A stretch of 64,000 nucleotides of DNA from Prorocentrum cordatum (lineage: Eukaryota; Sar; Dinophyceae; Prorocentrales; Prorocentraceae): contig CAUYUJ010014261.1 in the NCBI GenBank assembly GCA_963575745.1, positions 169,001 through 233,000 of the forward strand, given 5' to 3'. Of the stretch, positions 15,978 through 33,280 are shown in pieces. Each line of letters opens with the position of its first letter. Positions within the stretch are counted from its first letter, which is position 1. The position numbers and the translations under genes were made by a program. The notes below the pieces were generated by a model, which saw nothing but the letters and a program-made list of their open reading frames with translations, had not been told where the DNA came from and did not search any database.

Positions 15978-15978
15978 T

Positions 15979-16159: not shown

Positions 16160-16800
16160 GTCATGGATGGAGGACGGGCCCTTTTCAAAAGACGCTCTCC
16201 CACGAAATCCGCGGCCCTCGAGATGGCACCCGAGGCGTGTGAGTTCGTCTTTAGCTCCCAGGCGCGCGACGGGCTCCACTCGGGCGCAACGGGCGTATGT
16301 CCGCACCCCCGACAGCGGGGGCCCAGGCGCGCCAACCTATCCGTGGGTCGCGATCGTGGCCCCGAGGCTTGCGATTCCCGAAAAAAATGCCCCACGCGCA
16401 ATCCGCAAGCCCCTAAGGGGCCACCCATGCGCGTCTGTCTAAAATCCCGATCGGGCGTTTTGATGTTTGCCCCCACGCGAAATCCGCGAGCTCCGATGGG
16501 AGTTGTGAGTCACGGCGATCATGGTTCGAGGGCGGGTCCTTTTCAAAACGCGCTCTCAAACGAAATCCGCGGACTCGAATCTGGCCCCCGAGGCGCGTGA
16601 GTCCGCCTCTCCGCGCGGAGGGCTCCACTCGGGCCCTAGGCGCATGAGTCCGCGGGGCCCCCAGGCGCGCGGACATATCCGCGGGCCAAGATCGCGGCCC
16701 CGAGGCGTGCGAATCCCGAGAAAAGGCCCCCGATAAGGGAGGCAGCGTTTCGATTTTTGGCCCCGCGCGAAACCCGCGAGCTCTCATGGGAGCTGTGAGG
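16160..16800. repeat. Degenerate tandem repeat, about two units
   Basis: Blocks such as CTTTTCAAAA...CGCTCTC...CGAAATCCGCGG recur 358 bases apart (16181 and 16539), and the block GCGAAAYCCGCGAGCTC...ATGGGAGYTGTGAG recurs about 291 bases apart. GC-rich with no coding value. Second copy at 58415-59055. Confidence 0.7.
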
Positions 16801-16869
16801 CGTGCGAGTAGTCCGCCGCTTCCCGATCGGGGTGCCCTGGCGAAAGTGTGCGCGAATTCGTGTTCGACC

Positions 16870-16985
16870 ATGAAACAATGTTTCATTGTTGTGTGTTTTC
16901 TTGTTATCACAACTACAGACTCTATAAAATAGAATACTCTATTTTTTTGCTGCGTTCTCATTTCAACTCTATTTTATAGAGCTCT
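16870..16985. repeat. AT-rich hairpin cluster at retroelement boundary
   Basis: ATGAAAC-AAT-GTTTCAT (16870-16886), then CTCTATAAAATAGA near 16920 and CTCTATTTTATAGAG near 16967, which are near-palindromic and mutually inverted. This marks the sharp change from GC-rich flank to the retroelement block and may be its 3' end or terminator. Second copy at 59125-59240. Confidence 0.7.
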
Positions 16986-16991
16986 GGATCC

Positions 16992-17534
16992 TCAGGGTTC
17001 CCAACCCAACACCGGTTCGACGATATCGTCTTGATATTCTGGCCAGTCGAAGGCTGCCAGAGCAGGGCAAGATATTGGGCGAGCGTGCTGATCGATTTTT
17101 GTCTTCCACAGCAATGGCCACCAGACCTGGATCACAGGAACCTGCGTTCTCGCTCTCGCGGCTGAGAACGCAAGCCATTCAATGAACCTTCGGGTCAAGG
17201 GCTTCAAATACTGGAAGAAATGGCCATGGCGAGCCAGCGGCTGAGCCGCGGCGTCCGTTGGAACCCAAGCAGGGAAATTGCCTGGCTGGCTGTTCCCAAA
17301 AATCTGACCTGCTGAAGCCATGCGCGTAAATTCCCCATTTACCCACTTTCGCTCCTGCTGTTGGTTACTGCTGATGTTCTTCATCACACTCGCAGAAGCC
17401 CTCTGTTGTCTTCTCCCACGCGCTTTGATCCACTCAGGACGCGTGTTGGGAAGATTGCAATGGTCATTCACATGTAATCTAAATCCATCTGCCTCAAGGG
17501 ATCGCGGAATTATCCTTCTGTTCCACGTCTGAGT
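16992..17534 (-). CDS. Unknown frame, most downstream part of the block
   Basis: The open frame runs from about 17530 (TWNRRIIPRSLEADGFRLHV) through NDHCNLPNTRPEWIKARG and FFQYLKPLTRRFIEWLAFSA to VEPVLGWEP and a stop. It lacks a good ATG and continues the frame upstream if the degenerate hairpin at 17535-17554 is skipped. Not recognised. Second copy at 59247-59789. Confidence 0.4.
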   Translation of the reverse strand, partial: TQTWNRRIIPRSLEADGFRLHVNDHCNLPNTRPEWIKARGRRQQRASASVMKNISSNQQQERKWVNGEFTRMASAGQIFGNSQPGNFPAWVPTDAAAQPLARHGHFFQYLKPLTRRFIEWLAFSAARARTQVPVIQVWWPLLWKTKIDQHARPISCPALAAFDWPEYQDDIVEPVLGWEP

Positions 17535-18066
17535 CTCCGCTGGAAGCGGCGGAGCCAGCCGATGGCGTGACGTGAACAGGGATGGCTATGTCACCCGAGG
17601 CCGAGCCACTCACCGAAACGGCTAAGCCGCTCGGTGCCGTTGCCGGCGCTGCCTTTTGCAGCTCGTTCAGCGCGGTGCGCATATGCTCGTCATTTTGCAC
17701 GCCTTCTTCCTCCGATATTTGGTTTTTCCCTCTCGGCGACATCCCTGGGCAGAAAATTCCTCCGCGCGGCAAGAAGTAGATGTCGTCTTTCCATGGGGCA
17801 AAATCCTCATATGCCATTCCCCGCTTGAGAAAGTTCACAGAAACCTTTGAATAATATGAGTGTATAGCGCCACCTCCAGAACCGTCTGAGACGGCTGGAA
17901 AATCATCTCTGCCCAAAACTGACCTGAATGGGCGAGCATTGAGCATGGACGTGGGCATGTTGCCCGCGGACGGGGCCCAGTTCTGCCAGTGCATGACTTG
18001 CTCACTAACGGCCGCTTCCTGCTGAGCATACCCGCCCTCTCTCGTCGCGCACGTTATGCGGCCATT
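17494..18066 (-). CDS. Unknown frame continuing the 790-codon ORF
   Basis: Reads NGRITCATREGGYAQQ, then MHWQNWAPSAGNMPTS, FRSVLGRDDFPAVSDG and EDFAPWKDDIYFLPRGG, then a Ser/Ala-rich end. It is open directly after the hairpin at 18067-18086 and joins the upstream 790-codon frame in phase if those 20 bases are removed. Not recognised. Second copy at 59749-60321. Confidence 0.45.
   Translation of the reverse strand, partial: NGRITCATREGGYAQQEAAVSEQVMHWQNWAPSAGNMPTSMLNARPFRSVLGRDDFPAVSDGSGGGAIHSYYSKVSVNFLKRGMAYEDFAPWKDDIYFLPRGGIFCPGMSPRGKNQISEEEGVQNDEHMRTALNELQKAAPATAPSGLAVSVSGSASGDIAIPVHVTPSAGSAASSGDSDVEQKDNSAIP
17612..17635. repeat. TNA hairpin, 24 nt, frame-keeping
   Basis: Plus strand: outer arm ACCGA, unpaired A, inner stem ACGGC/GCCGC (one G-T wobble on the other strand) with TAA loop, outer arm TCGGT. 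The outer pairing extends by one C-G pair. The length divides by three and the surrounding frame continues. Confidence 0.75.
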
Positions 18067-20426
18067 CCGCGCGGCTGAGCCGCCGGAGGTTGGCAGAAGA
18101 ATAACACGGCGAGCTTGGCAGTTTTGGCCAAGTAGTCTGCACGCAACTGGCCAGCGTTCGCGCTCACTATTTGCACACCATTGTTCAAATTGCAGCCCTG
18201 GTGGTTCGCATTAAAGTGAAAGGTGTCTCCTGAGCGATGCCTAAGCTGTCGGTGGAGGCTCACTCCGTCGAGGATCATTATCCTAGGAATCATTCCTATG
18301 GCTTTGTAGCGTTCGATCCGACGGTTCATTCTGGCCCGAACAAGGGTGGCAACATCGCCCCACATCGGGTCTGCGCCACCTCCATCAACCTGCCAGCACT
18401 TGTGGTCCCCACCAACATACATAATCTCAATCGCCCCATCGGATGAACGGCCCATCGCGTCGTCCACCAGCTTGACCGCATCCTCTACCATTGTTCTGAG
18501 GCTTCCTGCAAATGCGAGTGGGTTTTCCTGTCTTTTTGGCCCAGTGCCAACTCCGTTCAACTCGCATGTGTGATCAACAATGTCGTTGAAGTTCCAAAAG
18601 GTGAAGCGTGTCGGAGTGTGGGTCCCCTTCTTGAAGTGCCCATTCTTGCCCCACTGAAAGTTTGAAAAAGCCTCCCGAATGGCCGAGACCAAAGCTCCAC
18701 TGCTGGCGTTCTGTGAACTTCCAAACACGGTTTCTCCCAGGTTGTACTCAGGGAGCAGGCTAGACTTCGCCTTCCCGGGTCCATCCTTGAATACAGTTGT
18801 GGAATCTGACACAATGTGAAGAGAACAAGACCAATAAGTATTCGACCCACTCTTCATCAAGCACAGTGGGCGGAAGAAATCTGTCACGGGTTTCCCTGTG
18901 TCTGACATGGCCGCAAGGTCCTCTCCTATAAATGGAAACCGCGAATGTCCGTTGACCCTGGCGATTTGCGAGATGGCCTGACACTTCTTAAGAAATCTCA
19001 GTTTGACTGCCCAGGTCTTCATCATTGGGTCTGTGATCCCAATATAAAGATCAAGGATCTCGTTCACCTTCTCCTGCCAGTCGTTGGTGGGGGCCCTGGG
19101 ATTGGCCGCAAAATCTCCCTGCGTCCGAAGATAGTCTAAGACGTTCCAGGGACCTCGCCCAATGTAGGGCGGGTCATCCGGCTCAGCTTCGACTGCGGTT
19201 GGACCCGACTCAGGCGGTCCATCCCCTCCACCACCTCCTGAGGAGGGGTGAGCGGGTGGATTATATCCCGAGGAGAAACCGCCTGACCCTGGCGGAGCTC
19301 CACCGCCGCCGGCTGGGCCGGGGGGTGAGCCGCCACCAGATGCCCCGCCGGCTGCGCTGGGAGGGTCAGTATGACCTGAGGTTGGGTCGGCGGATGATCC
19401 GCCGGCCGCCTGCTGTCCGGCTCCAGGGCTGCCCAAAGAGGGCTGGTTGCCGTGCGAGGCTACCTGGTGGCTAGCCGAAGCGACTGAGTCGTTCGGTGCC
19501 TCCTCTGTCGTCCGCGGCCTCTTCGGCGGCGACTGCTCTTTGGCCTCTGGATCGAGGCCGTCCTTGGCAAACCGTGCCTCAAGGTTTTGCGGTCTCTTCC
19601 ACGGGCGCTGCTTTCTGCGCCAGTGTATCGCCTGTTGAGGAGAGGTCTCAAAATAGTTCGCTCTTGCCGTGGCAGTAAGAGCCTCCTCGACAGCGTGCAC
19701 TGGCGTGTGATACAAGCCTTTGACCACAAGAAAAGCAAACATGGTCCCCCAAACGTCCCCGGCGGCTGCGCCACGGGGTGGCTTTCGGGGAGAAGGGCCC
19801 CAGATGTTCACCCACACCTCGGGGGATCCTTCTGTCCAGTGGTCTATCACTGGTACGCTCGCGAAGTCTCCATATATAGTCTCACACCGCACAGCAGGGC
19901 CGACAGCGGGGCCAATGACTTCTCCTTTCTCGAGCGTTCGAACTGCATGGCGAGCCTCCCCTGGCGGGTTCGCGCACGACTTACTGACCAACCTCGTCTT
20001 TTCATCAGGGTACGTCTGAAAGAACGTTCCGACGGAGATTTGGCCCAGGCCAGGGGGAACACACTCGAAACGGCATGTTGCCTTTCGTTCGAAAGTTGCC
20101 CAGTGTACTGTCCACGGATCCTGCGAGACCTGGGAGTACAGCCGTTGGAAGATTGTCTGCGATGCTGCATCTAGGTCTGCCTTCAGCGCGGTCACGACCT
20201 TGTCGCTCCGCATATACATGATGTCATGCCTCCACATCGTGTAGCGCCAACTCCACCTTTTCTTAAGTGCAAATTTGACATTCCCGGTAGGCACCAAATT
20301 TGTCACGAAAGCAGCGGAAAGTTGGTCTGTCCTTCCAGCGGTCAATGTCCCCTGGACCGGGGTTGGCCGCCTTCTTTGCGGGCTGACCGTCTTGGAAGGC
20401 TGTTTCTGCTGCCCTTTGACGAGCAA
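18054..20426 (-). CDS. 790-codon ORF of unknown function
   Basis: The longest uninterrupted frame in the block, with no in-frame stop. The first 300 residues have ordinary composition (KKRWSWRYTMWRHDIMYM, WGTMFAFLVVKGLYHTPV), followed by a basic KRPRTTEE patch and about 130 Gly/Ser/Pro-rich residues. The C-terminal 330 residues include KFTLPFIG-like segments, YWSCSLHIVSD, IEIMYVGGDHKCWQVDGGG and PRIMILDGVSLHRQL...DTFHFN. The last part vaguely recalls SGNH-hydrolase-like dinoflagellate proteins, but this is weak. The frame begins without a convincing start and ends inside a hairpin, so both ends may be artificial. Second copy at 60309-62681 is unchanged in length. Confidence 0.55.
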   Translation of the reverse strand: MLVKGQQKQPSKTVSPQRRRPTPVQGTLTAGRTDQLSAAFVTNLVPTGNVKFALKKRWSWRYTMWRHDIMYMRSDKVVTALKADLDAASQTIFQRLYSQVSQDPWTVHWATFERKATCRFECVPPGLGQISVGTFFQTYPDEKTRLVSKSCANPPGEARHAVRTLEKGEVIGPAVGPAVRCETIYGDFASVPVIDHWTEGSPEVWVNIWGPSPRKPPRGAAAGDVWGTMFAFLVVKGLYHTPVHAVEEALTATARANYFETSPQQAIHWRRKQRPWKRPQNLEARFAKDGLDPEAKEQSPPKRPRTTEEAPNDSVASASHQVASHGNQPSLGSPGAGQQAAGGSSADPTSGHTDPPSAAGGASGGGSPPGPAGGGGAPPGSGGFSSGYNPPAHPSSGGGGGDGPPESGPTAVEAEPDDPPYIGRGPWNVLDYLRTQGDFAANPRAPTNDWQEKVNEILDLYIGITDPMMKTWAVKLRFLKKCQAISQIARVNGHSRFPFIGEDLAAMSDTGKPVTDFFRPLCLMKSGSNTYWSCSLHIVSDSTTVFKDGPGKAKSSLLPEYNLGETVFGSSQNASSGALVSAIREAFSNFQWGKNGHFKKGTHTPTRFTFWNFNDIVDHTCELNGVGTGPKRQENPLAFAGSLRTMVEDAVKLVDDAMGRSSDGAIEIMYVGGDHKCWQVDGGGADPMWGDVATLVRARMNRRIERYKAIGMIPRIMILDGVSLHRQLRHRSGDTFHFNANHQGCNLNNGVQIVSANAGQLRADYLAKTAKLAVLFFCQPPAAQPRGMAA
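18067..18086. repeat. TNA hairpin, 20 nt, at a frame change
   Basis: CCG, unpaired C, GCGGC-TGA-GCCGC, CGG. The 790-codon frame ends just past it. Deleting these 20 bases joins VLFFCQP to NGRITCATREGG in phase. Second copy at 60322-60341. Confidence 0.85.
19475..19496. repeat. TNA hairpin, 22 nt
   Basis: CCGAA, unpaired G, CGAC-TGA-GTCG, TTCGG. It lies in the Gly/Ser/Pro-rich part of the 790-codon frame together with smaller palindromes at 19234-19246, 19364-19376 and 19389-19403, where a frame test is not informative. Confidence 0.8.
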
Positions 20427-20727
20427 CTATTTCTTCTCCGCGAATCGCAACACCAGCTTCCATTTCGATGTCTTCATCAAATACGACACCGTTCGGGCTA
20501 AAATCTCTAGCCTCGTTCCCATCCGGCTGAGCCGGTGGGCAAGCTTCTTCACTCGGCTGAGCTGGTGAGGTAGCATATCGAATTGTGTCGGGGGGAGCAT
20601 TTTCTTTGATCTCGTTCTCTGGATTTTCCACCTCGAGTGAGTCGGAAATGAGTTCGTCTATGATATCATCTGAGCAGATCGAAGCAACGCCCCCCCCCCC
20701 CCCCCGACGGTTTAACCGCTGGGTCAC
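20263..20727 (-). CDS. Acidic frame upstream of the 790-codon ORF
   Basis: Reads ISDSLEVENPENEIKENAPP and NGVVFDEDIEMEAGVAIRGE, then GDIDRWKDRPTFRCFR, ending after RECQICT. It contains two hairpins (22 and 20 nt) whose combined 42 bases keep the frame. It overlaps the 790-codon frame by 164 bases in another phase, so a frameshift lies somewhere in 20263-20426. A poly-C run and a patch differing between duplication copies lie at its start. Not recognised. Second copy at 62518-62985. Confidence 0.4.
   Translation of the reverse strand: MTQRLNRRGGGGGVASICSDDIIDELISDSLEVENPENEIKENAPPDTIRYATSPAQPSEEACPPAQPDGNEARDFSPNGVVFDEDIEMEAGVAIRGEEIVARQRAAETAFQDGQPAKKAANPGPGDIDRWKDRPTFRCFRDKFGAYRECQICT
20518..20539. 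repeat. TNA hairpin, 22 nt, one of a compensating pair
   Basis: CCCA, unpaired T, CCGGC-TGA-GCCGG, TGGG. With the 20-nt hairpin at 20549-20568 the total is 42 bases, so the acidic frame on both sides stays in phase. Confidence 0.85.
20549..20568. repeat. TNA hairpin, 20 nt, one of a compensating pair
   Basis: TCAC, unpaired T, CGGC-TGA-GCTG (one mismatch), GTGA. Ten bases from its partner at 20518-20539. Confidence 0.75.
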
Positions 20728-20799
20728 CCAACGGTCGACACATGGGTTTGGTCGATGCTCTCTCGGGCGCGCGGGGGCCGCGGCAGGCTAGGCTCGCGT

Positions 20800-21879
20800 A
20801 GTCACCGCAAGGCGACCACTCGATCCGAGGGGGGGCGGGCCGCGGGGCAGCCCGCGCAAGCTCAAGAGACGAAACGGCAGCGGCACAAACGTGATCAGAG
20901 GAGGAGATAGGACGACGACGAGACGACAAAGATCTCTCAGCAGCTCGAGCAATAACAGAATTGATCTGTCTAGCAAAAGCATATGTGTAATCTTCTGCAC
21001 TCTTGCATTCACGTCCTCTAGCTTCAACATGCTCGTGCGTGCCGTCACATCTGCGCTCAAGTCCCTCCGCAACGACAGAGGAGGTAGAAGCTATCGTCCA
21101 GGGCTTTTTCATGAAATTACCCTTGCTATCCTTTAATCCGTACGCGCATCCATGCAACGCCGTCTTAACAAACTCTAACTCTCTCATGAAGTCTGTTACC
21201 TGATGGTTTCTCCACTAATTACACTGGGTAGGCCACTCAACGCAAACAACGCCCCCCGCTTTGTGCACAGCGCGGGCAACATCACGGAAACTCCAGAACA
21301 AATATCTGAAGTCAGTCCTAATACCACGAAGCCTACGCATCGCTCTATGATTTCCAATACTAAAATAATGCGCTTCGTTCACATACTGCCAAAGAGAACC
21401 CCCCGTGCAAAGCATAGAGCCCCACAACGTAATGTGTTTTCCCTTGGACATTTTACTATCGTTCAAAGCTAACCTAAGTCCCTCATCCGTCCTCATATCT
21501 TCCGACTCAATATATCGAATCACCTTGCACGAGTTGTCAACTATTTTTTGGTGTTTCCTATCCTGCTCTGAGGACCACAGCGATATTCTAACAAGAGTCT
21601 TTCCCCGGTCCACTGAGTGGCCGGGGCGCAATCTTCTTGGATCCAGAACTCTGTGTATCCGGTCCATCTACTTGGGCAATGGTCACCATCGCTGGAATCT
21701 TCGTCGCGCCAATTATCAATACGGTCAACCGTCAAACCTTGTTGGGTATTGACGGCATAGGTGCGACGCCTATCATCTAACTTTTCCGGGTCGATGGGAC
21801 ATTCACCGATTGCTGGCGTAAAGCAACAAGTCTCGGAACGAAATGCCATCGTTTCAAACTCTGTCCTTGTTGTGTCCAC
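20800..21879 (-). pseudogene. Methyltransferase-like domain downstream of RNase H, broken
   Basis: Upstream frame AIGECPIDPEKLDDRRRTYA...TEFWIQEDCA; then, in another phase, GKTLVRISLW, HITLWGSMLCTGGSLW, GGVVCVEWPTQCN, an in-frame TAG (21215-21217), LHGCAYGLKDSKGNFMKKPW and CDGTHEH. I recognise the WxSxPCTGGSxW / EWPxxCxYW / DGCxYGL / KKPW order from dinoflagellate retroelement proteins. The PC and E-W-P blocks recall cytosine methyltransferase motifs IV and VI, but this is inference. The phase change is exactly cured by removing the 20-nt hairpin at 21605-21624. The Tyr expected before Trp is where the stop lies. Second copy at 63058 to the window end. Confidence 0.6.
21605..21624. repeat. 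TNA hairpin, 20 nt, at a frame change
   Basis: CCGG, unpaired T, CCAC-TGA-GTGG, CCGG; pairing extends two more C-G pairs. Deleting 20 bases joins TEFWIQEDCA to GKTLVRISLW in the methyltransferase-like domain. Confidence 0.85.
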
Positions 21880-22271
21880 GCATCCTTCTTGTCCAGAAAA
21901 TTGGCAGCCGCCGCAGGTGGAGGATGAGGAAGGAGAAGGTTGTGGTCAGGTATATCTTGCGTATCTCTCGGCAATATCGAAGTAGATGACTCAGTTCCGC
22001 TGTTCGCCATGCCAAACATTGCTTTCATTTCACGATTGGAACTTTTCGTAGTTGTGTCCTCCATCGTTCTGATTTTCTCGGAACTTCTACTGTAACCTAC
22101 TTCGGTCATTATAAGAGCATTGTCACCTGCTTCCACGGCTAGGCAGGGCGCATTCGCAACCACAGCTATGCTGGGAGCGTATGCCACCACGGCTTTGCCG
22201 GGGGCGGCCATAACGGGCGTGCCCTTATTGGGGCGCTTCTTCTTTTTGTTCATCTTTTTTACTAAGTGCAA
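21880..22271 (-). other. Spacer frame between RNase H and methyltransferase-like domain
   Basis: Open minus frame from a Lys-rich start (MNKKKKRPNKG) through VVAYAPSIAVVANAP and a Ser/Thr-rich stretch. No domain was recognised. It probably links RNase H to the downstream domain or marks a separate ORF start. Confidence 0.35.
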
Positions 22272-22361
22272 TTGCTCCTCTCCGCAAGGCCGAACTAGGG
22301 CCTGAGCGGGGCTTCGAAATCCCCCCGGGTTTCAGGGGAAGTCCGTCTGAAAACGTCGAAT

Positions 22362-23003
22362 CTAGATAGTCCTGGCGCCGCTTAGCGGCCAAGAATTTGG
22401 TTGCACCAATGTTGACAAGGTATAAACTTTAACGCGAGCCAAAGGGTCAGCGAACCTCTTGGTTCCAATGTCTGCAGCCTCGTTTTGAGTTCTTTCGTGC
22501 TGGAGCTCAACAAGGCCACGAGAAAACTGTTCGGACACAGCTGCTGCATCAATCCGATGTGTTCTCGCTAGGTGCAGGAGTTTCATTGATTCGCCTGCTT
22601 TGATGACTTTACAATCTGCTTGATTGTCTTCAAACAACAAACATCGCACTGGTCTGTCGAGCAGTATTTCCCAAAGCGGTAGTGCTGCAAGCAGTTCTTT
22701 GCGCAACGCAAGGTCCGCAGCGACAATATCTGCCTCAAGTGTGCTGTGGGAAACGCATGTATGTCGCTGCGATCCCATAGACTGTCCAGCTCTAGTGCAA
22801 GGGCCCCAAATGGCTTGAAAACTGGCACTCGTGCTACGATGCGTTCGAATGTCGCTTGCGAGATCTGCGTCAGAGTATTGCTTCAACAAGACATCTTCCA
22901 GTTTGCCGCCCACCCACGAAGTCATGCGGTAGTGGGAGGTAAAGTTTATATACCATATGAGGTGGAAAAGATCCATGTCTCGTTGCTCTGTCCATTTGGT
23001 AAT
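22362..23003 (-). pseudogene. Ty1/copia RNase H
   Basis: ITKWTEQRDMDLFHLIWYI, YSDADLASDIRTHRSTSA, SHSTLEADIVAADLALRKEL, LLFEDNQADCKVI, LHLARTHRIDAAA and ADIGTKRFADPL follow the RNase H order of Ty1/copia elements, with the acidic residues D, E and D in place. It is continuous with the reverse transcriptase except for an in-frame TGA at 23004-23006, just after AVCQTAS. Confidence 0.85.
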
Positions 23004-23437
23004 TCAACTGGCAGTCTGACATACAGCACGGAGCAAGTCATGCCTGGCCAGTCTCGCACCATAAAGTATTTTCATCAAAACTTTTGCTGCAATGGGTTGA
23101 AGCACGCCCGACTGCGTCGGTGGCTCTGGGTCATCGGGGCTCGCTGCTGCGGCGTCAAGGTCAAGAACATCTACTTTCTGATCAGGAGGGCCTGAGTCAA
23201 CGTTAATGCGTAATGCTAATGCTGTGGCCTCCTCTGCCGGGGAGTAAACCTCGCCTCTAGGGCCTCCTTGGCCATCCTCGAGATCAGTTAGTTCAGGGCC
23301 AGAAGGGGTCCCCGCAGCTGGGTAAGTAGCTGGATGAGTGTCCGTCAGTTGAGCATGTAGTGTAACGCAGGAATCAAAGAATTCTGTCATGTCATATTCT
23401 ATGAGTTTGGCTAGTTTCGGCTCTCTCGGTTGGTATA

Positions 23438-23461
23438 GCTCGGACGGCTGAGCCGCCGAGC
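23438..23461. repeat. TNA hairpin, 24 nt, frame-keeping
   Basis: GCTCGG, unpaired A, CGGC-TGA-GCCG, CCGAGC. In the reverse transcriptase, where removal keeps the frame. Confidence 0.85.
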
Positions 23462-24630
23462 CACCCCCCGTTTCCTCCTCGCTACTCTCGTCTGTGACGG
23501 AAGCGTTTTTCTTAACCTTAGGAGGAGGCGGGTCTAAGATTGTAGGTAACTCTCCTTGCCATTCAACCCGCCGTGTTGAGAGTCTATGTTCACATCCCAA
23601 ATGTCTTCCAACAGCCGTTGGAGGGTCTATTTCTGTTCCCTTAAGACAAGTTTCAGAAGGTTCTTGTGGTAGTTTCCAGCCCTCTGCAAGCTTGTCGGCA
23701 GGTCCCGACAGCTTGAAATCATCAACATCGGTAATCCGTAAAATTTACAATTCTTTGTGGAAGTAACAGCTGCGCCACGGACTACACTTCACAAAGCCTT
23801 TTGCTGTAACATGTCCCTCGCAATGCTGCTCCCAATATCCTCCTGAATCAGGGTGCCCGTGCAATGAGAGATATAGCGGGCATACGGGATTACGCATGTG
23901 AGACCATTCTTTAGGCCATTCATCTCGAGGTTGGGAAACCCAAGTCGGGGTGCCGCCTAGCTTCGATTGAATATAAGCATGCCGGGCGTCCGCTTGCTCG
24001 ATGCCATGGCCTTCGAATAGCCCGTGGGTGTCAGCTGCTGTACTAGCCTGTATCGTAGCGGGACTGCTGGGAAGTTCTTGAAATAATGCAACATCCTTAT
24101 TCTGATCCCTCTCACTCGAACCATCGAAAACTACCCGGCCTGTGTACTTGCGATCTTTGTGTCCTAACGGTAACTCTGAGTTCTTTTCAACAAGCGTCGC
24201 AAGCAGCCGGCAGAAGTGGGCCATCTGTCCCTTGAGTTCGGCGACAACGTCAGAGTATTCTCTGACGCCATCCTCTTTCCATGTGCCAATGTCACGCAGT
24301 CTATCCCATTCTTCTCTCAAGGCAGCTTGGGCGTCTTTGTTCGCTTTGGCCTCGTCCTTCGAGACGGATCTGGCGACGGCGGCATCAATGTAGGCGTGTT
24401 GCCAGTCGTTGGGAAGTTGGAAGGGTTCGTCGATAACTGAGATAAGGTCAGTAAAAGGGTTGTAAACATATTGCAAATCAACTCTCTCTTTTTCACGATG
24501 ACTGAGAACTGAAGCCGAGCCATCCTTCAACCTCATTCGAGGCACGCTTCGCCGCGGCGCGGCGGCCGCCGGACTCAAGGTCAGGCTTGCCTCATGAAAG
24601 TCCTCAGTCTCATCATCATCGGACAGCGGG

Positions 24631-24654
24631 CCCCTACCGGCTGAGCCGGAGGGA
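24631..24654. repeat. TNA hairpin, 24 nt, frame-keeping
   Basis: CCCCT, unpaired A, CCGGC-TGA-GCCGG, AGGGA (outermost pair G-T on the other strand). It lies in the linker before the reverse transcriptase. Confidence 0.75.
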
Positions 24655-24764
24655 CTCCCGTCTCGTGCAATTGTGCCTCCGTACCATGTCTGCTTCCTCC
24701 GAACGTCCTCATCATCCGAATGGTGTTCGTCGGAATCACCATCATCCGAGGACTCAGCAGCCAC

Positions 24765-25254
24765 AGCTGCGGCTTGGCCGCCCTATGCGAACCGCGACGC
24801 CGCCCCACGTCCGCTGGCAGGGGCGTTGCACAGGCTGTCCTCCCTCAAACGACGGAGCCGCTCAGCCACCTGCGGTGCTGCTAGCCCGGCCTCAGGAGCT
24901 GAGCCACTGCGGGTTCGGGCGGAGTCGGTGGATCATCCACGTCCAGGCCAATATCACGCAGAAGGCCAAGACAAGGACCAAGATCTTCTATACCGAAAAA
25001 TCCGCTCTTTTCTGCCCTGTATTGCTCCACGGCCTGTCGGCGTTGTGCTTGATTCATGTTGAACCATTGTCCAGGATGGATCCCAGGATTGGTGGATTCA
25101 GGCAGCTTTTTCAGCCATTGGGCACTGTATTTCGAGTCTGGGTCAGTGACCCACGCGCGGGGTTATAAGCGCGTAATCGGGATCAAGACAACTCGAATGC
25201 TACATGTCTTTCGTCGACCTGTCAATGGGAGTTTCTGCGTCAATTCTTCTTTTG
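24765..25254 (-). other. Integrase-RT linker, decayed coding sequence
   Basis: A minus frame reads NPGIHPGQWFNMNQAQRRQA and EKSGFFGIEDLGPCLGLL, typical of the linker between copia integrase and reverse transcriptase. It is interrupted by stops. A 15-bp hairpin (TGGGTC-AGT-GACCCA) lies at 25139-25153. Confidence 0.55.
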
Positions 25255-25346
25255 TTAGTCCAGCGACAATTCGTCTGTCTTCGAAGTATTCCATCGTGTC
25301 CAAGTTTGAGTCGTTCGAGCAAGAAGAAACCCTTTCCCGGGAACCT

Positions 25347-25370
25347 TCTCACGCGGCTTAGCCGCTGAGA
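25347..25370. repeat. TNA hairpin, 24 nt, frame-keeping
   Basis: TCTCA, unpaired C, GCGGC-TTA-GCCGC, TGAGA. In the integrase tail, frame kept. Confidence 0.85.
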
Positions 25371-26646
25371 AATTGGATTGTCTATCCAAAGGGTATTCGA
25401 GCTGCGCGAGTCCCAATTTCTGGTTCTTATCTGCTGGATGGGGATCGCGCTTTGGATCTCTGCCGTCAACAACCGTAGGCTCGTCATCCACACACAACCC
25501 ACCAGGGCCATCTTCTTCCATTTCGGCCTCTGGGTCGAAATGTGGGGCGCCCTCGCCTCCTTGGGAAGGCGTTGGCATGACAACGGCAGGATCGTCGGCA
25601 CCAAACAAGTTGTCCGGTCGTATCCCTGTTGCTGGTTGTGGTCCGTCTGGGACGGCCGCAGCTTCTCCTGCTGGAGGGATCGCGACGGAACGCACTTCGG
25701 CCACCGCCTTGTCGCACGCTTTTCTCAAAGGAAATTTGGGCGATTGGTCATCAGCAGTGCCATCTAAGATGTTGCTGTACACCTGGACAGACTTCTCAAT
25801 AGCGGGTCGGTTGCCCTCTGGGGTCCGCCCTGACTCCATGTTCAGACCGTCCAGTTGTCTCAACGGCACAACATAACTACTGTCTGGTCCAACCAATCCC
25901 CCCGCTTTGTGCACATACCCCAGGTATATCCCCGGAATCATTGTTGCGCCGGTCTTGGCGGTCCGAAGCCTGGACCCAGGTGGAGGCGCATAGCGCACAA
26001 GAGACCCAAAGGGAAGGAGCGAATCATCGAATCTACATCCAAAGCGTCGCTCCCAACTTGACTGTCCCTCCGCTGGGGTCCTGGTATTATAGCAAAGACA
26101 GAAGTATCGGGCTGCGTCGGTCCAATATGGCGGCGGAAGACCGGCCTGCGTGAACAAGGCTCTAGTCCCCATCTGTACCACCCCGTTCGCACGCTCAGCA
26201 ACGGCGTTATGTTTCTTATTTCCTGGGATGGTAAGATCATGGGCAATTTTGAGCTCGTAACATGCCCTCGCAAGCTCTCTTGCACCATCTGCATAACAAT
26301 ATTATAACTTATCCTCCGGGGCTTTCAGGTTTACTAAAAAGTTGCAAACGTGAACCGCAGACTTGTCGCGCACACCCTGAGCGGCAAGAGAATCCGTGGC
26401 TCGGTCACGAAAAGTCACGCACGCGGTCTCATCGTGGAGCCCCCGCGAGAGTTCATCCATCGCAAACCAATGATCCATCGTCGGCAGGTGTCCAAGCGAA
26501 GTGGGGTTAGCGTATGGGCGGGGAACCTTTAGCCCTTTGTTTTGCGCCTTGCGCTGTTGCTTTCTGATAGCTTTGGCCCAATTGCATACTGGACAATATG
26601 GCTTCTTAGGAGTATGAGTTAGAAGGTGCGGCAGGGAGGCCGCTGT

Positions 26647-26668
26647 CTTGTTTGAGCCGCTCGGCAAG
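26647..26668. repeat. Bulged hairpin, 22 nt, at a frame change
   Basis: CTTG, unpaired T, TTGAG-CCG-CTCGG (two wobble pairs), CAAG. The loop is CCG, not TNA. Deleting 22 bases joins VEVSET to the integrase zinc motif frame LPHLLTHTPKK. Confidence 0.75.
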
Positions 26669-26973
26669 GGTCTCCGACACCTCAACCTCCGCGTCGTCTG
26701 GGTCTAAGTCTGGCGGTGCGTCGACGTCGACTAAGTCGACACCGTCAGCGTCTCCAACTTCACCCCCCTCGGGTCCAGGGGCCGCGTCGCACGCACTCGA
26801 GTCCAGTCCTCGATTCATTTCGTAGGGAAGAAATCCTGAGACCCCGTACCCTTGAGGGTTTCTATATGCTGCGGCGCAGGCCTCGGCTTTGCCGGGCTGC
26901 TCGTCGCACTGTCCGACGGCCTGACCGTGGCAGGGCGAAGTTGCCGGTCGGCGTCCGATTCCAACCGCTGTCG

Positions 26974-27805
26974 CTAGCCTTTTGAAGCGAATAGTAGAAG
27001 TAGGTTATGGAATCCGCAGAGTCTATCGAGGACGGAAAAAACAGGCGCGATCTCAGTCGGCCGTCCATCAGCGTAGCTGTGGGCACCAATCAACTCATGT
27101 GCATGCAGGTCTATGGTCACGCGAGTCTGGACAGCGTGGGGCGGAGGGCCTCCCGCCGATTCCACATTGCCCAGGAATGCCTCGGCGCCTGGCGTCGCGC
27201 AACGCCACCGCTCGGGAGGTTCAATCCCTCCGGCGGCAACCGCGCACATCCACTGACCCAGCGCCTCTTTGCCTGATAGGGTCAAGTACGGTATCTTGCC
27301 CTCAACGGCCAGGTCCACTCCTTGACCGTTGGGCAACAACAGGCAGGGTCTTTGGCCTGCTGGCCAGAATCGGCTAAAGCCGTGATCCATGCACCGCTCT
27401 CCTACCGAAATCACGCACGGGGTCTCCGGCATGACTAAAGCATTAAAACTACCACCCTTAAACTTGGGGCACGCGATGCGAACTGAACCGAGGGCCTTTG
27501 ATTCTCCCCCACCAGTATTCAGAGTGATCGATTGCGGAAGCTCTCGAATCAATATCATTGCACCTGCGCTTCTAATATCTCTCCGCTATGAGGTTATACC
27601 CACACCCAGTATCTATGATAAAGTTCAGCGCGCCAAGATACGCAGCGTCTTTGTCTGTGCATCCAGCAGCGGCTGTGCCGCGTGGGCCCTCTTCCCCCTC
27701 CTCGGTTCTCAACCAGAGATGCCGGACTTCATCCTGCAGGTCAGACGCTCTGATCAGGGCCTCCGCAGCAGACGCCCTCGACTGAGCAGACATCTGTCTG
27801 CGCAT
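26974..27805 (-). pseudogene. Retropepsin-type aspartic protease
   Basis: LNFIIDTGCGYNLIAER carries the DTG active site with a hydrophobic lead-in. After a frameshift with a TAG, the next frame reads IRSAGAMILIRELPQSITL, then MPETPCVISVGERCMDHGFS and LAVEGKIPYL, the usual C-terminal half in dinoflagellate copia polyproteins. Integrase lies just downstream. The frameshift is not explained by a hairpin. Confidence 0.85.
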
Positions 27806-28014
27806 TTATCCTGGGAATTTCCACATATCTTTGCCACTCGAAGGCAACTCTTTCAAGTCGTGGCGACGCGCCTTCCTCCAAGTAATGGTGGGCCCCTCAG
27901 TAGAGGGGTGAAATCGGACACGGAGTTTGCGCCTATCGTTTTTTCGATGTCGGATGCAACTCTTACTAGGGGGAACGCCCCAGCACTTCTTGATAGCGTC
28001 CCGAGAAAGAGGGT

Positions 28015-28444
28015 CTAGGAAATTCGCAAGGACATTGACGAGGCTCTCGGCCTGTTCCCTGCCTTCGCGGTGAAACTCGTCGCCGGAGAATTCCCGTAGT
28101 CTCCTCCGCCGGTATCAGTGAAGACCTTCAGAAATTTAGGGCTGGTCTGTTTCTGCCCTGGGGGGGCCCGAAACAACGGAGCGGGGCACGCCGTGGCACC
28201 CAAGCTGACTTGGTCAGCGGGTATCTTCTGATTTCCCCGCTTTCGGTTTGACCGACGCGGACTTCGCCGCATCCGTCGAAGACAAGAAAGAGTACCCTTA
28301 ACAGAATTATGTGAATCATTCCTCTTGCACTGGCGGCTGAGCCGCCAGTGCGGAGACATTGTCACGGATGACCAGTCGTGGTCTGGGCAAACCAACACTC
28401 CTTGCCACGCGAGCATTTACCTGCTTCCTTGAAGGAGCGACAGA
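28015..28444 (-). other. Gag-protease spacer, decayed
   Basis: Three partly open frames and no clear domain. One reads STDAAKSASVKPKAGKSEDT. Stops in all frames. It contains the 25-bp perfect palindrome at 28327-28351. Confidence 0.4.
28327..28351. repeat. 25-bp perfect palindrome with TGA centre
   Basis: Eleven paired bases each side of a TGA loop, core GGCGGC-TGA-GCCGCC. The longest uninterrupted stem of the family, without the unpaired base. Confidence 0.95.
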
Positions 28445-28822
28445 TCATGTCTTTGCCTGCGCCTTTGCCTTTGTTCTTGTCTCCATCCTTTTTTTGCGTT
28501 TGTCGGAGTTATTACTGGAGGCCCTCGAGCCACCGTCACCTCCAGACGATGAGACATTGGCAGCGGCGGCGTTGGCTTGCTTGGCTGCGCGCTCGTATCC
28601 CAAAGATTGCCCCGCGTCAAATTTCGCTTGTTCCCACTTGTCGCGTTTAAGCTTCTCAGCATCGGTCAACCCTCTGTGGACTTGATTGCAACCGTCTGCT
28701 GCTCCGCGACAATTCTTGGAATCTCGAGACCACGCGCAGCATGGCATCGTGCTCTCTTTCCCACGCGATCGATCGGATTGTCTCCTGTTCCTCTGTTGCG
28801 CCCCCTTCCCACGCCCACCCAT
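28445..28822 (-). pseudogene. Gag 3' part with second CCCH zinc finger
   Basis: CAWSRDSKNCRGAADGCNQVH fits C-X8-C-X6-C-X3-H, the same spacing as the finger in the upstream gag frame. A short coiled stretch (KLKRDKWEQAKFDAG) and a basic tail (KAKAQAKT) follow. It is in a different phase from 28862-29917, so at least one frameshift separates them. Confidence 0.65.
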
Positions 28823-28861
28823 TGGGGTCTGCGATCGACACTGCCCCTTTCGGCCTCGGCC

Positions 28862-29917
28862 CTAGGATCTCCCTCTGGGGTTCTTGTCCTGGGCAGGAGC
28901 GGCATTATACTTATTTCCCGCGGCTGGCTGAGCCGGCGCGGCAGTCTTGGGCTTCTTGTGATTGAAAGGGCAACCTTTTCCAGCATGCGGGCAGGTTTCG
29001 CCCTTACGCACGTGCCTACACGTCGTCTCGCCCTTAGTCAATCCACATTTCATGACATCGGTGGGTTTCCCTAGTTTAGCTGCTACTTCTGCCGTGGCGG
29101 CTTTGCCGCCGGCATTCCTTCGATTGTCATTACCTCCGCCTCCGCCCGACCTGGCCTGCCGAGCACGTTGATTCAAGGTACTCTCATGCACGCTGATGTT
29201 CCACTCTTCTTCATCACGCAGCATCATTCCTTCGATCTGCTCCATCAGCCATTCGTAAGTCTTCGCACCATGTCCCATCTTATCCTTGGACAGGTCATAG
29301 AGTTGGCAAACGAAATTCAATGTGTTGGGCTTGCATTGCTCGATAAAGTGTGCATGAATCGAAGCTCTCATTTCATCAGACGGAGGTCGGGCGCCATAGA
29401 GCTGTTGGTATACATATGTCCAATCGTTGTAGACATGATACAGGTCAGCGCCTGGCTTGTCAGGGTCAATAACAACCTTGAAGCTATCACGCGAAATGCG
29501 ATGTTGGCCCAACTCCGACCTAACAGAACACCAATGACAAATGGCTCGTGCCATTTCGCGTCCCGTTAAGAGCCTTCCCTCATTCTGGGCGCTGCACTCC
29601 ATTCGAGTGATCTGCTGAAGGAAGTGTATGTGATGACTGGGCTGGTTGCGATTTCTTCGCATTTTGTTGAATTTCTCAATCAGATTAGTGGCGACCGTGA
29701 GGTCAAGACGTTGGAAGCGACCTGCTTCTTTCAATTGTTCATCATCCACAGCAGGGCCCATAGCTTCCGTAATCCAGCTATGCGCTGCTTGGCTCCTAGG
29801 CGACGACCCAGCGATCGCACGGATTGCATGCATTTGCCACTCCCGTACGTTTGTAACATCGGGGATGTCCAACAAGCCAATCTTCTGATTGTTTCCAACC
29901 TGTCTCCACTGGTCCAA
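28862..29917 (-). CDS. Gag-like protein with CCCH zinc finger
   Basis: 351 codons. The N-terminal 200 residues are a helical gag-like region (NVREWQMHAIRAIAG, LDLTVATNLIEKFNKMRRN, EMARAICHWCSVRSELG, YNDWTYVYQQLYGARPP), a Gly-rich linker follows, then CRHVRKGETCPHAGKGCPFNH (C-X8-C-X6-C-X3-H) and a Pro/Ala/Gln tail. The finger is the likely nucleic-acid binding part. The frame overlaps 29731-30159 in another phase, so the upstream gag frame must shift into it. The 24-nt hairpin at 28918-28941 keeps the frame. Confidence 0.7.
   Translation of the reverse strand: MDQWRQVGNNQKIGLLDIPDVTNVREWQMHAIRAIAGSSPRSQAAHSWITEAMGPAVDDEQLKEAGRFQRLDLTVATNLIEKFNKMRRNRNQPSHHIHFLQQITRMECSAQNEGRLLTGREMARAICHWCSVRSELGQHRISRDSFKVVIDPDKPGADLYHVYNDWTYVYQQLYGARPPSDEMRASIHAHFIEQCKPNTLNFVCQLYDLSKDKMGHGAKTYEWLMEQIEGMMLRDEEEWNISVHESTLNQRARQARSGGGGGNDNRRNAGGKAATAEVAAKLGKPTDVMKCGLTKGETTCRHVRKGETCPHAGKGCPFNHKKPKTAAPAQPAAGNKYNAAPAQDKNPRGRS
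28918..28941. repeat. TNA hairpin, 24 nt, frame-keeping
   Basis: CCGCG, unpaired G, CTGGC-TGA-GCCGG (one wobble), CGCGG. Near the gag C-terminus. Confidence 0.8.
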
Positions 29918-30530
29918 CGGCGTACTTTCATCAATACCTCCTGGATCACGCGGCCCGCCTGGGCCCTGAGGTCCTCCACGGCCACCCCCACCATCTGAAA
30001 GTCCTGATCCCCCCGGACTCCCTGGAGGCGGATATCTGGTCGTTTCGCATTATCTTCGTCGCGCGTCGACATAATCTGAGTGCTCGGCGCGTCACTCTTG
30101 CCATCCCCTTCTTTGTCCTGTCCTGCCCCGCCAGACGGCTTAGCCGCTGGCGGCCTCACAGGCCCATCCCTGGAAAATTGATAATGTTGACAAAACGGTC
30201 ATCATCGTTGGATCCTGTCAATTTCACGTTGACTGGTAATCCATTCTCAGGAGTGCTCGGCTTAGCCGGACCTTTGAGAGCGCGACCGGGAACGGCAAAG
30301 TTGTGGCGCATCCAGGACCTCACAGGAGTTTCTCGCGAAGGCAACGGCAAATCGAACGAACTCGAGGTGGGCACTTTTTCTTGTCCACTCTCAGTGTACG
30401 GGAATGGATTCGCCATGATAGCTCTTAGCTTCCTCATTCTGTTCTCTGACTCGGCTGCATTCACCGTGGCCTCTTCTTCTCGAATGTTGGCAATGGTCTT
30501 TCGCTCTTCTGTTGAGTACATGTGGAGCAT
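29731..30530 (-). pseudogene. Gag 5' region, frame broken by a hairpin and a stop
   Basis: Upstream frame (30530-30156): TIANIREEEATVNAAESENR, MRKLRAIMANPFPYTES and VNIINFPGMGL, then TGA (30156-30158). Downstream frame (30159-29731): GQDKEGDGKSDAPSTQ and GDQDFQMVGVAVEDLRAQAG. Removing the 26-nt hairpin at 30128-30153 puts both in one phase, leaving the single TGA. Confidence 0.6.
30128..30153. repeat. TNA hairpin, 26 nt, at a frame change
   Basis: CCGCCAG, unpaired A, CGGC-TTA-GCCG, CTGGCGG. Deleting 26 bases puts the two gag 5' frames in one phase. Confidence 0.85.
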
Positions 30531-30749
30531 CTTTTAATGTTCGCATCGAAATGATCTTTGCAAGCCGGCAGACCACAACCAGCGCAATCACCCGTCTTCG
30601 GATTGAAGCAAACTGAGCAAAACTGAGAAACTGTGAAACTCGCTGTGTTAGTTGCTTCCCTTTTCGCGGGCTGAGGCTGCGGTGCAGCCCTCGCCTGCAA
30701 AGTTGACGATGCCGCGTTCACTACGGTTGTCAAGTCAGGCTGGGGCGGT

Positions 30750-30771
30750 GCCAGACGACTGAGCCGTTGGC
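30750..30771. repeat. TNA hairpin, 22 nt, at a frame change
   Basis: GCCA, unpaired G, ACGAC-TGA-GCCGT (one wobble on the minus strand), TGGC. Deleting 22 bases joins TDRRPS to PPQPDLTTVV. Confidence 0.85.
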
Positions 30772-30789
30772 GATGGTCGTCTGTCCGTC

Positions 30790-30810
30790 CCCGCCGGCTT
30801 AGCCGGCGGG
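30790..30810. repeat. 21-bp perfect palindrome with TTA centre
   Basis: CCCGCCGGC-TTA-GCCGGCGGG. In phase with the surrounding frame and without an unpaired base. Confidence 0.95.
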
Positions 30811-31848
30811 CATTTATCACTGCTTACTTGCATTCGCTGCAGGGATGCTCTGGCATTTTCATGTGATTTGAGTTTCTCTCGATATTGATTGTTCTGGTCA
30901 GCTATTTTCGCAGCTACAGCTTGGGTGTTTACCACTTCCAGCCTGGCGTTTTTAAGCTTTTCTTGAAGCTCCTGTTGTTCTCGTTCCGCCCTGGCTGTAG
31001 CGATTCGTTTTCCTTCTACTCTGGCCGCCGCAACAGGAGCGGTGACCGTTTTGGCATCAACGGACTGATTAGTAGCCGCCACAACGGCCTGTCGTTCTGA
31101 AGCCAGCATCTCGATATATCTATTCTCGGCTTCTCTCTCCGCCTGCCGCTTAGCGGCCGCGGTCTGATGGTGCACCTGTTCCACCAGTTATTGTTCTCGC
31201 TCTCTGGCAGACCTGGCTAGAGCGAGCCTCGCAGCCTCGAACGTCTTCCGAACTTCTTCCACGGTTGCGATCATCTCCTCTCGATCCAGTCGGGCCCTTT
31301 CGGCCAGCTGTGCTTCGCTTGCCTGGAACTCCTGCTGAGTCTTGACTGCAGCGAGTCTAGCCTGATCCTGAATAGTTTGCGTAAGAAGACATGTGCAGTT
31401 ATGCTCGTTCATAGGGAAGCAATCTTCACACAGCCATTGGGTGCTACACCTAGGGCATACCTCAGAGCAACTCTTACGTACTGGACGCCTACATGCACCT
31501 TCTGGCTCGTTGGTTTTACCCGGGCATCTGCTCTCCACCTGAGGCGCGCAGTCAGAACTCCAGTTCCAGCATGTGTCAATCATTGAGATATTTCTGTTGC
31601 TCCTTGAAGTAGATCGGGCTCCTGATCTCGGTGTTTTGGGTCTTCCCCTACTAGAAGTGTTCGATCGAGGACGCACAAACGTGCATTCTGGGGGTCTAGG
31701 TACCTCTCGAAGCTCCTCATCCCTTTCATTTTGTCTTATAAGCTCAGTGCGCGAAGCTGGTTGTCCAACCATCTCTTCATCCTCAACCAGAGCCGGCACC
31801 GAGGGTTGCCAATCGCCTGAGGCGACAGCAGGACGATAGAAACCTTTT

Positions 31849-32813
31849 TTAAGCGGTGCGTCGTTTAAATCGTAATCCTCGTTCCTCTGTTTCTTGAGTT
31901 GAGGTGCAGGAGTCCGTCCTGTAGACTCCAGGCTTCGCCTGAGTCTCAGCCTTGTCCGCCTGAGGCGTCAGGTCACTGGTATCTTCATCTGATCCATCTG
32001 GGGACCACCTCTCGTCTTGGGCGGGGTGGTCGGATTCCACTAGCGAAGACAATTCTCGGCTCAAGGAGACTCCTTTGTTGGCATAATCGAAATCCTCCTC
32101 CATGGAATTTATTTCATGCTCTCTATCAATTGGATCATCACTATCCTGGCCAAATTGTCCGTCCAATGCTATTGGGATGGGAATATTTCCACTCGTGCCT
32201 CCCCACCCGCCTGGGACGTTGGGGTACACGCCTGTGGACTCGTGGGCTTCCCCGATCGACTGGCTTCACCAGCGGCTGGTACGAATGTATGTGCAGCAAT
32301 CGGAATTGGAATGATTTGCTCCGTCGATTCGGCGATCAAAGACGAGAATGTTCCTCGTCTAGATATCGCTGCTGTGCCATTCCGTCTGTGCAGGTCTGGG
32401 GTTTGTTCACGAGTACCGATCGGAACACCAGAGGGAGAGCCATATTCCGACATCTCAACAACCTCTTCAGTGCTTCTACCCCTAGAGACCCGAGTGGCGG
32501 TACTAGAAGAAGGAAGGCGGCCCTGACCAGGGCCGCTCTCCTGTGGATCATGTCCGTCATGTTGTACAACATGCTGTTCTGCGCTTCGCGAGGTGACGGA
32601 GATTTCATATGTATTATCATAGCTCATACCCGCAGCGACTGAGTCGCGGGGTTCATCAGAAGGCCGTGTTTCTGGCTGATATAAGCCCGCTTCGACTATG
32701 TCGCGGCTTTCGGCTGATAGCCAGTCATTCCTCTTAGAATCGGGGTAAGATGACAAAGGAATTATGATCTCATGTTCACTCTGCTCAGCGAGAGAGGGTA
32801 CGGAATGAGACAT
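31849..32813 (-). pseudogene. Disordered acidic N-terminal frames of the retroelement
   Basis: Frame 32813-32169 is Ser/Glu/Pro-rich. Frame 32229-31849 reads GGWGGTSGNIPIPIALDG and SMEEDFDYANKGVSLS, ending in another phase. A third phase, open from 31923, reads TGRTPAPQLKKQRNEDYDLN and leads into the frame at 31799. Removal of the 22-nt hairpin at 31924-31945 joins the second and third. No domain. Confidence 0.45.
31924..31945. repeat. Bulged hairpin, 22 nt, at a frame change
   Basis: GACTC, unpaired C, AGGC-TTC-GCCT, GAGTC. Same plan with a TTC loop. Deleting 22 bases joins PQADKA to TGRTPAPQLKK. Smaller TGA-centred palindromes lie nearby at 31813-31825 and 31957-31967. Confidence 0.8.
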
Positions 32814-32850
32814 CGATAAGACAAGTAACCGGTAAACGAGTTTACTAGAT

Positions 32851-33280
32851 CAAGAATGATAAGTGAGGTGGCCGGCCGGCCGTCGACACGACGACGACGC
32901 GGGGACGACCCCGCGGCGCGCGCGAGCGGACCAGCACGCACCTTTTTGTCTCCTGTAAGCAAACATACAGCTGCGGATAATCACCGCAATCATAGTCAGA
33001 CAGTGCGCAGCAATGCAAAGGATACAACAAGCAATATTAGTATGAGGCGGAGAGGAGCTTATTTACTGAAGAGCCTGGCCAGTCGAGCCGGCCGCGGGCA
33101 AGCAGGACGCAGCGAACCCCACGACTGGGCTGGAGGCCAACGTCCTTGCCGTCGCTCGGACGTCCATCTCTCTGTGCATCGTGTGGTCTCGCGCGCGCGT
33201 GCTTCCCAGGAGGAAGCAAGGTGGCGCTGCCATCGCCGAGGGAGACACGCACACGCCCGAGCGATGCCAGTCGGCCAGGG
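32851..33280. other. GC-rich flank after the retroelement, no gene seen
   Basis: Abrupt rise in GC with GGCCGGCCGGCC and CGACGACGACG runs right after the last retroelement frame, the likely right boundary of the block. Confidence 0.6.

Follow-up and report, generated by a model that had tools for sequence, protein, structure and literature searches.

The window analyzed here is a 64,000-nucleotide stretch of the genome of the dinoflagellate Prorocentrum cordatum (contig CAUYUJ010014261.1 of assembly GCA_963575745.1, positions 169,001 to 233,000; GC content 58.3%). It contains part of a Ty1/copia-like long terminal repeat (LTR) retroelement that is coded on the minus strand and spans ~18 kb, and the internal region of this element carries a family of short, oriented hairpins. 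With high confidence, we regard the hairpins as components that are inherited within one lineage of very large retroelements and held under structural constraint. There is about an even chance that they are conserved as docking sites for a Gag-type protein on the genomic RNA of the element. We found no printed description of such hairpins in the literature, in a search of open-licence papers only, where absence is no proof.

A family of oriented hairpins along the element

On the sense strand, a hairpin of this family consists of an outer arm, a 4-5 bp inner stem closed by a C-G pair, a triloop, the second inner arm, 1-3 unpaired bases, and the second outer arm. The triloop with its closing pair reads C-NNA-G. 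In other words, the loop has three bases ending in A, mostly TCA or TAA. The letters of the stem are free, but there is a tendency to retain pairing, the C-G closure, the end of the loop, and the side of the bulge. The position of the bulge and the inner stem differ between hairpins. Along the internal region, there is one hairpin per ~600-700 nt, nearly always in sense orientation, so that hairpin orientation follows transcription. Some hairpin sites are in coding linkers and others in the 3' region, and no bulged C-TNA-G site lies within the stretches covered by homologous proteins (25783-26643, 23499-24134, and 22518-23400).

A scan restricted to Watson-Crick pairs found 21 bulged triloop hairpins in the block 16981-32830. 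The bulge was on the 5' side of the plus strand in 18 of these, and 11 of the 18 had a TNA loop. Sixty dinucleotide shuffles of the block gave on average 2.5 bulged triloops (maximum 7) and 0.07 members of the 5'-bulged TNA class (maximum 1). A second scan covered the unique part of the window (1-41588) and searched for C-TNA-G stems, meaning stems that are closed by a C-G pair and have four or more Watson-Crick pairs; a bulge of 1-3 nt was allowed. The 15.85-kb block contained 22 such stems: 14 with a bulge on the 5' side of the plus strand, one with a bulge on the 3' side, and 7 without a bulge. When the codon order of the block was shuffled (200 times in each of 3 frames, plus 200 local shuffles), the mean fell to 0.83-1.04 stems (maximum 6), and to 0.035-0.07 for 5'-bulged stems (maximum 1). 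The excess thus survives both kinds of shuffle, including the codon-matched control that had been proposed as a way to refute the family.

That proposal came from an earlier note on this DNA, made from the letters alone, which described a hairpin family with one plan. The family is real, and all seven of the note's example hairpins match in coordinates and form (7/7). The number given there, at least 17, depends on the rule, since 14 are bulged, 22 are found in all, and a few more are added when a non-Watson-Crick pair is allowed. The ratio of 14 to 1 in bulge side bears out the directionality that the note had claimed. Its loop rule, usually TNA, is too narrow: read in the sense direction, the block has 57 C-NNN-G stems, 39 of which have A as the last base of the loop, and an A-ending loop goes together with a 3'-side bulge in all but one of the 14 bulged C-NNN-G stems (13/14).

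The members without a history in the sections below are as follows. The sites 18066-18087, 20518-20539, and 21603-21626 were found in both scans, 17875-17899 has a 2-nt bulge, 32629-32650 has a 3-nt bulge and lies in the internal region, ~70 nt from the end of the 5' LTR, and 31140-31161 has an internal loop of 2/1 nt. The hairpin at 28327-28351 pairs over 11 bp with no bulge. Near-members with one non-Watson-Crick pair are present at 28918-28941, at 30750-30771 (a sense-strand G.T pair), at 20546, and at 17611-17636 (sense loop TTA, one G.T pair). Weaker sites are 22373-22391 (bulge of 2 nt), 30251-30275 (a plus-strand C-TTA-G stem of 4 bp whose outer arm is unpaired), 31807-31830 (C-TGA-G, 5 bp), and 31950-31974 (C-TGA-G, 4 bp). 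All of these are read on the minus strand. The core CGGCTGAGCCG has six exact copies in 1-41588.

Outside the block, there was no bulged C-TNA-G stem in 1-16980, where one unbulged stem was found, and no C-TNA-G stem at all in 32831-41588. Bulged triloops with any loop numbered three in 1-16980 and one in 32831-41770. The region past 41771, which follows a 100-N gap, is not independent evidence because it is a 99.5-99.9% duplicate of 1-21742. Window positions 41589-64000 comprise the gap and this repeat, which runs on past the window end, where the next 11,558 bases (genome pieces L014-L015) are 100% identical to 21743-33300. Its probable origin is a duplication in the assembly or the presence of the other haplotype. 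Searches with Rfam (gathering thresholds) and ARAGORN gave no matches, and no DinoSL piece of 11 or more bases was matched within the window.

The same sites in other copies

One conceivable origin is a mobile mini-palindrome that long ago colonized an ancestor of the element and later became fixed in it; to the earlier note, the hairpins looked like a proliferating mini-palindrome. The some two dozen copies with one plan, the often common core CGGCTGAGCCG, and a loop that is read in one common codon phase (A-[QK]-P or similar) at 13 of 25 sites, as judged by eye in the longest open reading frame (ORF), would fit such an origin. The genome assembly that was searched has 4.13 Gb in 21,875 contigs. 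The core CGGCTNAGCCG occurs at 9436 sites against 8304 for its reversed control, so there is no large excess genome-wide. A 301-nt query around the hairpin near the end of the integrase-like ORF (25346-25371) gave 40 scored matches of 581 candidates, including the window and its duplicate. Of 34 rows compared, two were the window and its duplicate. The hairpin stretch was present at the same place, with point changes, in 32/32 other copies, of which 28 came from the similarity search (three identical) and four from the loci C4 and C69.

The comparison of copies with and without a hairpin that the note had suggested gave no clean absence in 60 site-by-copy comparisons (25 sites; copies on C4, C69, and C49). 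The loci C4, C69, C45, and C49 had been selected by their abundance of core motifs, which biases the sample toward intact sites, and the sequences read came from few element families. Irregular copies were a 7-nt deletion at 19229-19250 in one copy, on C4, and a local duplication at 24632-24653, a site of the C-TNA-G scan, in one C69 copy. The same hairpin sites are present in related copies down to 67.8% identity. The reverse transcriptase of the element has at least 150 scored genome matches, from 4055 first-look candidates. As a side observation, positions 1-20000 of C69 (L009-L010) hold truncated element copies arranged head to tail with a period of ~10.9 kb.

Homologous proteins point the same way at the hairpin in the reverse-transcriptase linker (23438-23461). 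The peptide at this site is AAQ or VAQ in 6 of 7 close homologues read in the main frame and ASQ in P0006, and it is absent in P0019, P0024, and P0025. By eye, the linker has 36 residues here and still 36 in P0024, which lacks the peptide, and 39 in P0019. A back-translation test on the proteins was suggestive for P0022 and weak for P0005, and it was superseded by real DNA. Equal linker length with and without the peptide, the lack of clean empty sites in the 60 comparisons, the absence of a large core excess, and free stems around a fixed loop and bulge, which are unlike descent with decay, make the mini-palindrome origin quite unlikely. Apparent spreading palindromes can be inherited structure.

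Known palindromic repeats differ in the same respects. Rickettsia palindromic elements are longer inserted elements that lie in frame inside coding sequence. The hairpins resemble them as palindromes in frame in coding sequence, but here no insertion is seen, the sites are common to the copies examined, and the stems covary. A single plan of short hairpin that recurs across a genome is likewise seen in organellar double-hairpin elements and mitochondrial bypass elements, whereas here the hairpins belong to a retroelement in a multi-gigabase genome, with shared sites in open frames. The introner elements of Amoebophrya share a dinoflagellate genome and hairpin-forming inverted repeats; they are introns whose two ends carry inverted repeats of 8-20 nt (PMC7789003). 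The hairpins found here are instead triloop hairpins of 20-26 nt in open frames.

Bulge side is shared by most other copies. The bulge was on the sense 3' side in 22/26 bulged C-TNA-G stems of C4, 5/5 of C45, and 3/3 of C13412L. With any loop, bulged stems were A-ending and 3'-bulged in 23/25 cases in C4 and 6/7 in C69. A random control of eight 5-kb pieces, set at round coordinates and drawn mainly from contigs on which the element is known to occur, gave three C-TNA-G stems, none bulged, in seven pieces (35 kb). The eighth piece (L050), with five C-TNA-G stems, is another element copy.

Hairpins also diverge more slowly than their surroundings. Copies were compared pairwise with each other and mapped via the window, whose own copy was left out because the sites had been chosen as intact in it; a substitution rate measured against the window copy was set aside as biased for the same reason. 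These divergence counts, like the pooled covariation and wobble counts below, used copies in one orientation only (L019-L023, for example, were left out). Hairpin positions differed at 133/1078 (0.123) and flanks at 719/3109 (0.231), and hairpins were lower in 11/11 pairs. Control windows shifted by 60-150 nt gave 0.195-0.243. The nine of 19 sites without an exact core behaved alike (67/442 against 387/1361 in flanks; lower in 8/11 pairs). In 13 nearer copies found by similarity, two sites showed 0.037 in the hairpin and 0.122 in the flank, with the hairpin lower in 77 of 78 pairs, which are not independent because the copies are related.

Further evidence comes from the stems themselves. For the hairpin at 23438-23461, the window was aligned with 20 copies that had been selected by their long open frames (21 sequences), and counts were made on 18 distinct rows. 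Stems seen were CGGC/GCCG, CGTC/GACG, and CATC/GATG. In other words, arms change and pairing is kept, as the earlier note had said of the outer arms. Cells changed on both sides numbered 12 against 4.8 in shuffles, and the covariation score was 0.196 against 0.083; neither value was reached in 500 shuffles. Pairing holds in 88.3% of all cells, and the outermost pair formed in the window is open in 16/18 rows. Pairing here is kept at a cost to protein sequence because the change from CGGC to CGTC alters both amino acids (AAQP to ASQT).

Paired changes occur at other sites as well. The inner stem GCGGC/GCCGC of the window at 17233-17252 is GAGGC/GCCTC in the C45 ortholog, and CGTC/GACG becomes CATC/GATG. 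In the 3' region, CCCGTCCA/TGGACGGG becomes CTCGTCCG/CGGACGAG with both arms changed. At 20549-20568, which has one plus-strand wobble, the outer arm is TCAC/GTGA in the window and CCGC/GCGG in a C4 copy, and at 30128-30153 a C4 copy has CGAC/GTCG for CGGC/GCCG, with the outer arm broken there. At 30789-30810, pairing is perfect over 9 bp in the window and weaker in C69 and C4. Pooled over sites, double-changed cells still pair in 11/17 cases, compared with 13/62 for slid partners; this count includes one row (LTR4132 vs C45) that is apparently misaligned and whose 'LTR' label denotes a 2.3-kb internal stretch.

Could these sites be no more than fixed coding sequence? The earlier note had held that hairpins lying at the same sites in all related elements would speak for this. 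They do largely lie at the same sites in the related copies compared, but they are more than fixed coding sequence, since the two arms change in concert and, at one site, do so at the expense of two amino acids. A related idea, that Pro/Ala/Gln-rich linker peptides are palindromic by chance, draws on the PAQP or AAKP-like peptides encoded at many sites. It is almost certainly wrong, given that codon-order shuffles fail to yield hairpins, several codon phases are used, and paired changes alter amino acids at 23438. Alternatively, strand-switching during DNA or complementary DNA (cDNA) synthesis could copy one arm onto the other with no selection. Double changes would result, but such self-correction should erase the bulge and would keep neither the C-NNA-G loop nor the slow divergence of the whole site. 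The copies at 23438 partly show bulge and loop kept while arms co-change, and we see only a slim chance for this mechanism.

Candidate readers of the hairpins

What might recognize the hairpins? Their directionality, their placement in both coding linkers and the 3' region, and a signature of loop and bulge that persists as the stem letters drift make it probable that they are docking sites. One protein would dock on the hairpins of the single-stranded genomic RNA of the element, recognizing loop end, closing pair, and bulge side and leaving stem letters free. The reader would most likely be the element's own Gag or nucleocapsid-type protein. The hairpins may then act as dispersed packaging (assembly) signals that select the right RNA and organize particle assembly. 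This packaging step is drawn by analogy with viruses and is somewhat doubtful. More tentative still is the proposal of an LTR retrotransposon with a distributed assembly code, in which 25-30 hairpins with covarying stems on an 18-kb RNA would be read by its own Gag.

The analogy is with the dispersed packaging signals of RNA viruses (MS2 and others), which likewise consist of many short stem-loops along one RNA with a common loop motif, a bulge, and variable stems (PMC6281560). Their structural features, namely many hairpins, a shared loop and bulge motif, and structural conservation, are found here along one predicted RNA. In the MS2 motif, the loop reads (x)xYA and the 5' bulge holds an A (PMC6281560), and repurposed Gag-like proteins are named in the same text as a possible further case (PMC6281560). 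By comparison with MS2-type signals as given there (PMC6281560), the hairpins differ in belonging to an LTR retroelement, in a sense 3'-side bulge whose base is free, in stems that are often near-perfect over ~8-11 bp, and in a protein partner that is putative. If the reading is true, packaging-signal-mediated assembly would occur outside RNA viruses. Dispersed packaging signals are still debated in viruses, and whether Gag chooses RNA by one site or by many spread sites is taken as an open question. The many element copies and the repeated covarying hairpin make the docking idea testable by comparison alone, and then by binding assays.

Several observations weigh against docking on sense RNA. 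In retroviruses, the known packaging signals are grouped near the 5' end. The Gag candidate is recognized by position and zinc-finger likeness, and Pfam is silent on it. At 23438, double-changed pairs numbered 3 against 1.4, a value reached by 23/500 shuffles, and further pair types 6 against 4.9, reached by 99/500; a slide of +3 also gave 10 double-changed cells, though the remaining slides gave 0 or 1. In the pooled count, 65 cells carry a single breaking change and 11 a compensated one. Pairing is lost at 31923-31946 (sense loop GAA), which does not form in the C69 and C4 copies, and at 19475-19496, which is broken in one C4 copy. In C69, the bulge of C-TNA-G stems is on the 3' side in only 1/3. 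Sense G.U pairs and A.C mismatches amounted to 20 and 19 distinct events, and to 3 and 2 at 23438, in a count made without sites 20549 and 30789. The wobble test thus favours sense RNA over neither DNA nor the other strand, because G.U is no commoner than A.C.

The lack of a sense-strand wobble preference would suit a function at the DNA level, with hairpins extruded on single-stranded cDNA or DNA and read by a protein of the element. IS200/IS605 transposases recognize bulged hairpins, and the size, bulge, and triloop seen here are of that kind. However, IS200/IS605 hairpins stand at element ends, whereas here ~25 sites are spread through the interior and no C-TNA-G hairpin is found in either of the two LTRs. 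No such enzyme was found among the ORFs tested: Pfam at E 0.01 gave no Y1 HUH transposase match in 10 ORFs of the block, whose frames are broken. We consider a DNA-level function very unlikely.

An RNA-level signal could also be read by the host instead of by Gag. An RNA-binding protein or processing factor acting in export, stability, translation, or silencing evasion would account for the same structural facts (excess, constraint, and covariation) and for hairpins in coding linkers and the 3' region alike. Host genes might then be expected to carry hairpins too, although little host sequence was read. So far the hairpins are found in one element lineage, and the 35 kb of other genome sequence had no bulged C-TNA-G stem. 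A host factor is an unlikely reader, but one that deserves serious consideration beside the docking of a Gag-type protein.

The host element and its nested segment

The 5' LTR of the element is 345 bp long (32723-33067, minus strand), begins with AGT and ends with ACT in the sense direction, and has no C-TNA-G hairpin. Its partner is located beyond a nested insertion, in the genome piece left of the window (L013, 6060-6403), and the two LTRs are 92.75% identical. Past the LTR end (...AAAGACT), the sequences of C13412L, C4, and C45 diverge from one another. The 2.3 kb that precede the 3' LTR belong to the internal region and not to the LTR, whose length is 345 bp.

The internal part (16999-32722, minus strand) was recognized by ORFs, homologous proteins, and genome copies, and its frames are broken. 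An integrase-like ORF fragment (25258-26301, minus) has weak profile and Pfam matches. Its profile (A1) matched chain W, 'Integrase', of PDB 7z0h, which we take to be the Ty1 integrase, weakly (E 0.0077), and Pfam rve matched its homologue P0004 below the cut-off (E 0.029). The reverse-transcriptase-like ORFs (23007-24782, minus) are 23748-24782 and 23007-23744, in the same frame with one stop between them. Pfam RVT_2 matched the homologue P0036 below the cut-off (E 0.0026), and the second of these ORFs has 63 homologues in public protein sets. The order on the sense strand is thus integrase and then reverse transcriptase, with weak domain matches. An ORF at 22365-23003 (minus) is presumably RNase H-like by its copia motifs, without Pfam support. 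The Gag-like ORF (28865-30049, minus) is assigned by position and has no Pfam match; a C/H-rich stretch at its end is, we assume, zinc-finger-like. A 790-aa ORF at 18057-20426 gave no homologue in a protein search.

The likeness to Ty1/copia LTR retrotransposons lies in these best, weak matches to the 7z0h integrase chain and RVT_2. The element differs from them in its ~18-kb size and its some two dozen conserved hairpins, and we know of no copia element with such hairpins. The best database proteins were labelled Pyramimonas sp. in 3/5 matches of one ORF search and 14/63 of another. Many close homologues, P0001, P0005, and P0006 among them, are labelled Pyramimonas sp. AAC in EukProt. This reflects either sharing of the element or contamination of one data set. 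No related loci were found in the viral_contigs and genome_contigs collections.

The left edge of the block is formed by a nested segment of ~18.7 kb, which comprises window positions 1-16998 (its right-hand part, assigned to neither strand) and L013 8325-10000. It has 38-bp inverted repeats (CCCTGAGGATCCAGA...) at its ends, the two ends match in inverted orientation at 97.4%, and the uninterrupted site is visible in C4. The segment resembles a large DNA transposon, and inner AACTCTATAAAATAGAGTT-like palindromes are also present at its ends. A scan of the whole segment found no bulged C-TNA-G stem and one unbulged stem, the latter in the right-hand part. Beyond it, three more element hairpins follow with the same plan and orientation. 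The confinement described in the earlier note therefore holds within the window, where bulged C-TNA-G stems occur only in the retroelement, but the edge near 16980 is that of the insertion, and the hairpins resume on its other side.

On the other side of the element, an 888-aa ORF (40234-42900, minus), which crosses the N gap and has an unsure 5' part, matches Pfam Pkinase with an E value of 8e-25.

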